A stretch of DNA of 64,000 nucleotides from positions 735,325 through 799,324 of the forward strand of contig SDOX01000017.1 in assembly GCA_004565275.1 (NCBI GenBank). Direction: 5' to 3'. Made by a program: the position numbers and the translations under genes. Source of the DNA: Nannochloropsis salina CCMP1776. Its lineage: Eukaryota > Sar > Eustigmatophyceae > Eustigmatales > Monodopsidaceae. How positions within the stretch are numbered: the first letter of the stretch is position 1; each line of letters begins with the position of its first letter. Under the pieces are notes generated by a model. That model was given only the letters and a program-made list of their open reading frames with translations, had not been told where the DNA came from and did not search any database. Positions 30,478-33,715 of the stretch are shown piece by piece.

Positions 30478-33102
30478 GTTGCTGTTTTCCAAGCGCATGT
30501 AAGCGGGATTTATCCAGGAAGCTGTCTGTGGGGGAGTTGGGAGCTCAAAACTTTGTTCTTCCGTCTCCTTCGGCGCCGGTACTACGGGGCAGAGGGTTGC
30601 GAGAGGCGAAGAGGACACGCTGGGGTGTCGGACGAGGAAGTCCTTGGCGAATAACCTTTTATGTCTCTGAATGTAAAGGTTATAGAGAGATCGGTGAGAG
30701 TTGGTGCCGCACGAGCCAAAGAAAGCGCATCGGAGTGGCACCGAAACCTGAGGAAAGCAGAGCTCGCGAGATAGCACACACAATGCTATACTTGACCAAA
30801 GATCTCTAGCGCGTCACTACCGAACGCTCTTCACATATCACACCTGTGCAGTGGGGCATTTTTTCCTGGTATTCGCGACTCTTACAATCGTGTCTTTCGT
30901 AACCCGAAAATCACATACGCTGCGGGCGGGCTCCACCCCTTTTCGCGTCGCTGCATCCAGGGTTTTCTCATCATACAAAAGTCCACCACGGCCCACCCAT
31001 GAATGCTATTGTGAGCCACCGCATGATGAGGCTTGGACATACGTCGAGCATTTCCATGGCAATGAGGTTCATCGGCTCGCATGGCCCCATCCAGAACGCA
31101 CTGACGACGCGCGTTTCTGGGAAGGAACAATTTTTTCGCCTTCTGCGCGATCGACAACAACCAGGCCGCAAATGCCAGTCACATGGTCTGGATGGTTCCG
31201 TTTCAGGGCGAACATGGTCACGGGAATAGACAAATCAATTATCACCCAATAATACACTTCTTTTGCGCGGCACTGTGCACGCCAATGCCACCGTGTCCGT
31301 CGTGGTATGTGATGAGGGGATGGGGGAAGGCCGCAAGGGGCGATAGAGCGTGCGGAATAGAATCCAGTTCCCGAGCACATAGCCACTCTGATCGCAAGAA
31401 CCTCCAGGCATGATGTCCAAGCACGCACCAAACATAAGCACGAGGCACACCATTTCCATGAGCTGCAAAAGCAGACGTGACCGGCGGCCAGTCCTTGGCA
31501 CGCGGGACCACGGCGCGGACGGCGGGAAAAGGAGGGGAACCCCAGGCGATGACAAGGCGGCTGACGATCGACTTGTCCTCCTGGGGGGAAAGGAACGGAT
31601 CGGAACGGGGGGAAGATCGACCCCCAGGGGCTTTTTTCCACAAGCACGCCTTTCTGCTGGGCTTTACAGATAGCCTTGCGAAAAATGCACTGGTTTTCAA
31701 TAACATCAAATGATTTTCATCTAAACTCGAAGTCGTTATGCGGGCGAGGCTCTGCCCGTTGCGGTTGTTTTCGTTGTTTTCGTGGCGTCAGACGTAGCCA
31801 GGAGGTAGACCGTGCCAATATTCATTTTATTCTGAAAGCAAGCATTTGAAAGCGGTGACAGCTAAAGTGTCTGCACATGATTTTTTAAATCTAAATACTC
31901 GACACCCATCAGTTACATTCGGAGCCCAAATGCCCTATTTCTCTTTATATTATAGAACCTCGCTATGACTCGTGAAATCCTCATGCTATTTGCAGTAGTG
32001 ACGTTCTATGTATTGATTCCCTTTCGGATGTTGAGCATGCTGTGAATATATACATATAATTGTTATTTGACTTCAATCTACTGTGCAGATTCTGCGGACA
32101 GCAAGATAAGCCTATGCTGTCGCTACGCCACATTCGCGAAGCCCCTCACGTTGCAAGTATATCAAATTCCTCGGAAAGCTTATTGTAGGATATCGCTTTC
32201 TGCTTAAGGAATCGTAGATAATTTATTCTCTGCCGTCCTTCCCAAGAGAAAGATCTATAGTGTGAGTGAAGTGTCTTTTCTTTTAAACTCAAAAAAAAAG
32301 GGTGCTTTGCATGGTGCCTAACATCTCCGAAACACATAAGTGAACTACTCAACGAAACAGCATGTACAGTGGCCGTTTTCTGTGTAATATAAAACCTTTT
32401 CCAATTTACATCTGGAGCTTACAATCTTCACATTTGGAACTAACAATGTTGACGCGTGGGAAACCTCGAAATTCACCGATCATTAGAGCACGTAAGCCGT
32501 GGAATAGGTTCTCACTTGCAGGTGCAAATTGGTCCGCATGCCTCTCATGCTGAATCTCCAAAATAAATGACCAATTTTTGATACAAAAACAAAATTTGTG
32601 ATGTTTTTGCGGGTTTTGTGATCCGAGTCACAAAGCTGCTCGGCTCCATGTGCCATGTGCATGATAAGTGCAAGAAAGAAGCACTAGAGGTGTTGCAACT
32701 TCCAAGTGATGTCCCGATCGATTTGAAGATAGCCTAACAACAAGTACAACGACACTCGCCCCCTAGGACAATATCAACGCATAGACTCAACTTACGATGA
32801 AGGAAAGAAATACGTGTTTTATCCCTTTTCTTTATCGTAACGTGTTGTATCATGTGAAGCGCCTCTCGGACGAGAAGCAACACTGCAGTCGAATAGCATG
32901 TCTATGCGGAAGTGAACATGCATGACAATCTCATTTTACTTTAGAAGATCTCCTGTCATTTTTTTTTCCTCTTCGAAGTCCTACTGAACTCTAAATTTGC
33001 CATCTCCTAAACAGACATATAGTCACGAGTCTGGAGAAACCCAGCGAAGTGATGGAAGACACGTTCATAAAATGAAAGATTGCTCGAAATACCGATGTGA
33101 AG
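30478..33102. other. Gene-poor region, mostly unassigned
   Basis: From about 30.8 to 31.7 kb the DNA is fairly GC-rich, with overlapping open frames on both strands (31242-31709 and 31069-31647 minus, 30851-31252 plus) that I cannot match to a family. A short VVPRAKDWPP stretch recalls glycosyltransferases but nothing else supports that. A decayed gene is possible. From 31.7 to 33.1 kb the DNA is AT-rich with no supported gene. Confidence 0.4.
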
Positions 33103-33173
33103 CATCGCTAGTCAAACAGGTGACTAAGTTGCAGCTCTGGCAGCGACTCTGCGGTTCGACTCCGCTAGCGAAC
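33103..33173 (+). pseudogene. tRNA-like element, probably a decayed tRNA
   Basis: A perfect B-box (ggttcgactcc, 33153-33163) lies within a 71-nt cloverleaf-like sequence. Acceptor pairing is TCGCT with AGCGA (5 of 7). The D-stem is AGTC/GACT with GG in the loop. The anticodon stem is GTTGC/GCAGC, closing a 7-nt loop AGCTCTG. The T-stem is GCGG/CCGC plus one mismatch. U33 is replaced by G and the top acceptor pairs are mismatched, so a working tRNA is doubtful. It ends two bases before tRNA-His, so joint transcription is possible. Confidence 0.35.
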
Positions 33174-33175
33174 GG

Positions 33176-33310
33176 GCTTGCATCGTCTAGTGGTTCCGAT
33201 CCTGCACGCTGTACATATGGGACGGAGTGCCGTATCGACATTAAGGACACTTCGTTGTGGCTCTGTTGAGCAAATCCCGAAGAAACGGCGGTTCGATTCC
33301 GCCTGCGAGC
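33176..33310 (+). tRNA. trnH-GUG: tRNA-His(GUG) with two apparent introns (D-loop and anticodon loop)
   Basis: The ends pair over seven bases, GCTTGCA with TGCGAGC. The T-arm GGCGG-TTCGATT-CCGCC (33287-33303) is perfect and contains a B-box. The anticodon stem CTTCG/CGAAG (33250-33254, 33278-33282) holds TTGTGG, with anticodon GTG at 33257-33259, then 16 extra bases (33261-33276) after position 37, the usual eukaryotic intron site. The D-stem GTCT (33185-33188) pairs fully with GGAC (33245-33248) only if about 48 bases (33196-33243) are skipped, leaving loop AGTGGTTA. The D-loop insert itself folds: CGAT/ATCG, a 3+3 internal loop, then GCAC/GTGC. Mature length would be 71 nt. A T-run at about 33329-33334 could end Pol III transcription. 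Confidence 0.72.
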
Positions 33311-33644
33311 AAAAAGCTTCCTTTACACTTTCTTTTTGCATATGATTCTTTCCACTTGTCATCCTACATTTGTTTCCCAGCATACCTATTATTCATCACA
33401 CTTGCATATATATCGACAAATGTTGGCTTGCGTGCCTGAACTGATTTGCACAGAACAGAGCGGGCTGAAAATTTTCATTCAGTAATGTGTTTCCTTGTGA
33501 GGAAAAAATTCTTGAAGAGAAGACGCATCATTGCTGTTTTAAGGGAGTGGAGAGGAATTCTCTTTCAACAACGCAGCGCGCATAGTGCACACCTTCTGCT
33601 TGTCGTAAATTTTCATGATGTGCACTTATGATTTGGAAAAAAGT

Positions 33645-33715
33645 GGACCCGACGGTGATCGAAACCGCGACCTTCCGCTTGCAAAGCGGACGCCATACCA
33701 CTAGGCCACGAGCCC
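33645..33715 (-). tRNA. trnA-UGC: tRNA-Ala(UGC)
   Basis: This is a full cloverleaf on the minus strand. The acceptor is GGGCTCG with CGGGTCC, including the G3:U70 wobble that specifies alanine. The D-arm is GCC...GGC with AGTGGTA. The anticodon stem TCCGC/GCGGA has loop TTTGCAA, giving anticodon UGC. The T-arm is GCGGT-TTCGATC-ACCGT. It has no intron. A T-run directly downstream (33637-33642 read on the minus strand) fits a Pol III terminator. Confidence 0.93.

Follow-up and report, generated by a model that had tools for sequence, protein, structure and literature searches.

Positions 33176-33310 (+) of the window, the 64,000-nucleotide stretch of contig C42 analysed here, hold a tRNA-His(GUG) gene built of three exons and interrupted by two inserts. 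Direct reading and an intron-aware cloverleaf parser agree on this, and they bear out the coordinates and the insert lengths (48 and 16 nt) proposed in a preliminary description of the stretch, so that the twice-interrupted gene is confirmed. Of wider consequence, interrupted D-arms turn up repeatedly among the nuclear tRNA genes of this alga. The reading we favour, with a probability of about 0.85, is that the locus is the working, and probably the only, nuclear tRNA-His(GUG) gene, whose two introns would be spliced by an endonuclease-ligase route.

Anatomy of the tRNA-His(GUG) gene

The gene and its surroundings comprise the following features (window positions).

33176..33195, + strand: exon 1, with the acceptor 5' strand, T8-C9, the D-stem 5' strand GTCT and the D-loop AGTGGTT (sequence, parser)
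33196..33243, + strand: 48-nt D-loop insert, a proposed ectopic intron at about position 20/21 (sequence, parser, fold and bulge-helix-bulge (BHB) tests)
33244..33260, + strand: exon 2, with A21, the D-stem 3' strand GGAC, A26, the anticodon stem strand CTTCG and the loop TTGTGG (sequence, parser)
33257-33259, + strand: anticodon GTG, inside the exon 2 loop TTGTGG
33261..33276, + strand: 16-nt insert at 37/38, the canonical intron site (sequence, parser; also ARAGORN once the D insert is out)
33277..33310, + strand: exon 3, with C38, CGAAG, the variable loop AAAC, the T-arm and the acceptor 3' strand (sequence, parser)
33311, + strand: A73 (sequence)
33333..33337, + strand: run of five T, a likely RNA polymerase III terminator, starting 23 nt downstream of the His gene
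33643-33715, - strand: ordinary tRNA-Ala(UGC) without introns, oriented convergently to the His gene and with its nearest end 333 nt past it (ARAGORN, Rfam)

All 21 pairs of the four stems (7+4+5+5) form, in keeping with the earlier account of a 7/7 acceptor, a perfect T-arm and a CTTCG/CGAAG anticodon stem. The acceptor GCTTGCA/TGCGAGC (7/7) and the D-stem GTCT/GGAC (4/4) include one G-U pair each, the anticodon stem (5/5) closes a loop made of TTGTGG, the 16 extra nucleotides and C, and the T-stem GGCGG/CCGCC (5/5) carries the loop TTCGATT. T8, A14, G18G19, T33, G37 and TTCGA are all kept. The anticodon GUG, a 4-nt variable loop and A73, which we take to be features of cytosolic tRNA-His, are found together at the locus, and the otherwise complete tRNA contains an insert outside 37/38. 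The D-loop insert can be bounded only to within a few bases: AGTGGTT|A gives the most ordinary product, and AGTGGTTAA or AGTGGTAA would be equally usable.

Runs of T serve as terminators for RNA polymerase III, and of the 21 nuclear tRNA genes read, 20 have a run of at least four T that begins no more than 31 nt downstream, the exception, tRNA-Leu-CAA, having none within 60 nt. In the window, tRNA-Ala alone reaches the Rfam gathering score, and eight open reading frames gave no Pfam match. Directly upstream of the His gene, at 33102-33169 (+), lies a tRNA-like stretch with an A-box-like TAGTCAAACAGG and a B-box-like GGTTCGACTCC, judged by the general consensus of these boxes. Its cloverleaf-like fold is equalled by 25 of 200 shuffles, a DNA search found no copy elsewhere at E<=10, and neither an acceptable acceptor nor an acceptable anticodon arm can be formed; it may be a tRNA in decay or one with more interruptions.

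Interrupted genes in the nuclear tRNA set

The assembly searched comprises 26.5 Mb in 103 contigs, with 63 of 582 candidates scored in the Rfam search, and the parsers were applied to the window plus 176 loci, together 355 kb with some overlap. The 21 nuclear tRNA genes read, namely 16 nuclear Rfam matches named by ARAGORN (two of them re-read, as Lys-UUU and Tyr-GUA) and five found by parsing, carry 21 different anticodons. D-arm inserts are present in 5 of the 21 and an insert of any kind in 7, fractions that come from a biased sample because 16 of the genes come from an Rfam search, which makes no provision for introns of this type. Besides the His gene, the interrupted genes are the following.

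L089, 276-396, + strand: tRNA-Lys-CUU, 49-nt D-loop insert (parser)
L089, 632-714, - strand: tRNA-Lys-UUU, D-loop exceeding that of spliced Lys-CUU by 10 nt (read by hand)
L066, 1417-1540, + strand: tRNA-Arg-CCU, about 51 nt inserted near 22/23 (relaxed parser)
L047, 1319-1521, + strand: tRNA-Gly-UCC, 203 nt, with inserts in the D-arm (49 nt), the anticodon loop (33 nt, 37/38) and the T-arm (50 nt, about 53/54) (relaxed parser)
L098: tRNA-Tyr (GUA), 15-nt anticodon-loop insert only
L057, 1224-1329, + strand: tRNA-Val, anticodon GAC by position, 33-nt anticodon-loop insert only

An anticodon GAC on tRNA-Val is unusual for a eukaryote. With their inserts removed, the first four genes are named Lys-ctt, Lys-ttt, Arg-cct and Gly-tcc by ARAGORN. 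As it stands, the Lys-UUU gene is called Arg(tcg), turning into Lys(ttt) when 10 nt are taken out, and the uncut Tyr gene is called Leu(tag). Run with its intron option on cut-out genes, the program reports Lys-ctt with a 45-nt intron and Arg-cct with a 51-nt intron, and reports neither His nor Gly. Once relaxed to admit the Arg and Gly forms, the parsers returned tRNA genes only in the scanned sequences and nothing in 15 Mb of simulated sequence.

A GTCT/GGAY D-stem pattern matches exactly the His and Gly genes, against 8 matches in the control. A pattern combining a GCTC/GAGC D-stem with a D-loop intron matched 8 times and its control 9 times; two of the 8 were examined beyond the matched letters, one being Lys-CUU, and the match at C15:14206, once its sequence was read, proved not to be a tRNA. 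Several B-box lists were also drawn up. GGTTCRANNCC gave 440 matches, of which the first 30 were read, and GGTTCGANTCC gave 76, with 13 on C102 and C103 and the other 63 all in scanned loci or the window. GGTTCGANCCC (48 matches) and GGTTCAANYCC (105, the first 100 used) pointed to 116 further stretches, of which 76 were scanned; in these the sole parse, L121, was low-scoring (17) and judged no tRNA. Contig C103 carries tRNAs and a frame recognised as atpA, presumably the plastid gene, which would make C103 a plastid contig.

Among the scored Rfam candidates and the scanned loci, no nuclear gene was seen for Phe, Trp, Cys, Asn, Gln, Pro or elongator Met. The nuclear Met gene reads A54, given as an initiator mark in the portion of the review available to us (PMC3978253); it is therefore counted as the initiator, and elongator Met as unseen. 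It is conceivable, at slightly worse than even odds, that the alga keeps one gene per anticodon in a set extensively interrupted outside 37/38, with the seven unseen isotypes still more interrupted or permuted, and that this condition is of independent or red-endosymbiont origin. A set interrupted to that extent would make the decoding of His, Lys, Arg and Gly codons depend entirely on a broad-range, archaea-like endonuclease, a suggestion as tentative as the picture from which it follows.

Alternative explanations and the proposed splicing route

The alternative that survives best, itself unlikely, is that the locus is a pseudogene, a former tRNA-His broken by insertion, and that an intact gene lies elsewhere. 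D- and T-arm insertions in one of many synonymous eukaryotic genes are usually taken as pseudogenes, according to the section of PMC4090602 at hand, and a second gene could be among the pattern matches described here. A DNA search with window 33060-33330 revealed no other copy at E<=10. The combination of TTGTGR and, 14-44 nt further on, a T-arm core occurs 64 times, near the level of the reversed control (56); these are the window, one mitochondrial tRNA (C102) and 62 others, of which two were read for a cloverleaf. Both of these nuclear matches in scanned loci were rejected as tRNA-His, the one at L090 with a T-stem of 3/5 and the one at L120 with an anticodon stem of at most 2/5, and neither forms a cloverleaf. 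A longer-gap version of the pattern likewise stays near the control (5 matches against 4), two of the matches being identified as the T-arm of Ala-CGC at L038 and a mitochondrial match. To the question raised earlier, whether this is the only tRNA-His of the organism, the answer is that no second nuclear gene was seen, with 2 of 62 and 2 of 5 pattern matches read. A pseudogene also fits poorly with the preservation of every exon pair and invariant base of the His gene, and the D-arm inserts that four other tRNA genes hold between intact exons are evidence against it as well.

The folding of the precursor bears on a less probable alternative, in which the D insert stays in the mature tRNA-His as an expanded D-arm hairpin and the anticodon intron alone is spliced. 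The 48-nt insert does pair with itself in the minimum-energy fold, as had been described, but shuffling reveals no excess stability (z -0.42; 90 of 300 shuffles equal it or do better). In the same fold the D-stem is retained and the insert prolongs it as a hairpin, so that the precursor would be a cloverleaf that folds with the insert still present, which speaks for retention. Against it, the strict BHB at the equivalent site of Lys-CUU predicts removal to an 8-nt D-loop; the tertiary pairing of G18G19 is hard to keep with such an extension; and to our knowledge no eukaryotic cytosolic tRNA has a D-loop extended by ~50 nt.

The convincing BHB is that of Lys-CUU, and that of His is weak. In a constrained fold the Lys-CUU D insert yields the D-stem, a 3-nt bulge AGA, a 4-bp helix GTTG/CAAC, a 3-nt bulge GTT and an inner helix CCG/CGG. 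A 3-4-3 arrangement is the usual BHB form, and this structure is strict save for a single unpaired A facing a bulge. Of 2000 shuffled inserts, 3 match it, under definitions of the BHB that were fixed after the Lys-CUU fold was known. Cutting after the second bulge base would leave the D-loop AGTTGGTA (8 nt). Lys-CUU is the one strict case among the four D inserts tested (His, Arg-CCU and Gly-UCC being the others), and those of Arg-CCU and Gly-UCC satisfy neither the strict nor the relaxed definition. The likeness of the His insert to a relaxed BHB, suggested previously, holds to the extent that such a form exists, with AGTG/CATT beside the D-stem and CGAT/ATCG inside; the strict form is absent, however, and 155 of 2000 shuffles reach the relaxed one. 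The Gly-UCC D insert folds unusually well (z -2.74, with 2 of 300 shuffles as good), whereas those of Lys-CUU and Arg-CCU fold no better than shuffles (z -0.32 and 0.21).

Some motifs are shared between genes. His and Lys-CUU have in common GGTTCCGA across the 5' junction (window 33192-33199) and CATATG inside the insert, perhaps by chance or through shared origin. The D inserts of Gly-UCC (L047) and Arg-CCU (L066) both contain ATGATGATC, which we take to resemble the C box of C/D snoRNAs.

Standard tools see little of the His gene. ARAGORN misses it in the window with its intron option on or off. Once both inserts are cut out it names tRNA-His(gtg), but since this holds for 20 of the 21 offsets tried for the 48-nt cut, the name is uninformative on the exact D-loop boundary; with the D insert removed, the program itself reports a 16-nt intron at the anticodon insert. 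The strict intron-aware parser, built to tolerate inserts in the D-loop and at 37/38, detects the gene in the window; the relaxed parser gives a single parse for its T-arm. Chance assembly of tRNA-like stems, with which the silence of ARAGORN and the off-register Rfam match (17.9 bits, cut-off 29) would agree, is extremely improbable in view of 0 parses by the strict parser in 20 Mb of simulated sequence (first-order Markov, one strand, base statistics of the scanned sequences) and of a T-run at the usual distance. A self-splicing group I or group II intron was likewise rejected: Rfam detects no catalytic core in the window, and an insert of 48 nt falls well below the size of either type.

For a functional, spliced tRNA-His gene, we infer that the product is transcribed, cut, joined and used. 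RNA polymerase III would transcribe a precursor with two introns, and a Sen-type tRNA splicing endonuclease would cut both, acting at the D-loop via a relaxed BHB built from exon 1 and the 3' end of the intron. A ligase, probably RtcB, would then join the exons, and the D-arm inserts of Lys-CUU, Lys-UUU, Arg-CCU and Gly-UCC may be served by the same route. The tRNA_int_endo profile (PF01974) has a partial match at C78 (positions 6-36 of 85; E 1.8e-5, 29.4 bits against a cut-off of 27), and RtcB (PF01139) matches at C93 (E 5.2e-156, 522.8 bits); with these profile matches, both endonuclease-ligase splicing families therefore appear to be present. The RtcB match (G000:C93:498868-500145, - strand) has one TAG inside its aligned stretch, which may reflect a small spliceosomal intron or an error in the assembly. 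The first interpretation, a D-loop intron removed by an unusual splicing activity, is partly supported: the site is ectopic and intron-like, but the simplest agent would be the usual tRNA endonuclease, accepting a wide range of substrates.

Comparison with known systems and significance

The phenomenon is known, and the stramenopile nucleus appears to be new as a lineage for it. The alga is probably a Microchloropsis (Nannochloropsis), a genus of the Eustigmatophyceae within Stramenopiles; a stramenopile host is what the preliminary description had thought possible.

The following comparisons draw on those parts of the cited papers that were available. A close parallel is the red alga Cyanidioschyzon merolae: its ectopic introns lie in the D-, anticodon and T-arms, with three in tRNA-Ile(UAU) (PMC9602550), and it has 43 tRNA genes for 42 anticodons, 30 of the genes being predicted by tRNAscan-SE (PMC3978253). 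Its nuclear genes carry introns outside 37/38, up to three per gene, at nearly one gene per anticodon, and the putative introns described here resemble them in this; the present case would belong to a different major lineage, the stramenopiles. No permuted tRNA genes were noticed in the scanned loci with parsers for genes in the normal order. The nucleomorph of Guillardia theta has D- and T-arm introns, several per gene, the non-canonical ones being 3-24 nt long and their excision confirmed by RT-PCR (PMC4090602), and many of its introns are without a defined BHB (PMC3978253). That compartment is a relict endosymbiont nucleus, whereas here inserts of up to about 51 nt are found in the main nucleus. 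Non-canonical intron sites of archaea include 20/21, 22/23 and 53/54 (PMC4090602), the very sites proposed in this alga, and a BHB, strict or relaxed, is a further point of resemblance; in crenarchaea, however, recognition rests largely on the BHB itself (PMC3978253), and the hosts are archaea.

Among green algae, described in the accessible text as otherwise almost free of atypical tRNA introns, Ostreococcus lucimarinus has a tRNA-Ser(TGA) gene with a 56-bp intron at 27/28 (PMC3978253). This too is an intron outside 37/38 in the main nucleus of a eukaryotic alga, but the gene is permuted and the site lies in the anticodon arm. Canonical eukaryotic 37/38 introns occupy the site of the His 16-nt, Tyr 15-nt and Gly 33-nt inserts and do not cover the D-loop and T-arm inserts. 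As far as the excerpts at hand go, eukaryotic D- and T-arm introns were reviewed in 2014 for the C. merolae nucleus and nucleomorphs, together with the single anticodon-arm case of Ostreococcus (PMC3978253, PMC4090602). For N. oceanica, the ncRNA table of strain CCMP1779 lists 38 tRNAs (PMC3499364), and another genome was annotated with default tRNAscan-SE (PMC6610115), according to the parts of these papers available. In the titles and abstract openings of open-licence papers, no report was found on tRNA introns in stramenopiles, Nannochloropsis or Microchloropsis.

In genomes of this kind, essential tRNA genes can escape the standard finders. Nuclear transformation is reported for this oil-producing stramenopile genus, which would make the trait experimentally approachable. 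Whether the splicing endonuclease has a distinct make-up, the order of intron removal, and whether the trait is endosymbiont-derived or has arisen twice would all be testable in the genus.
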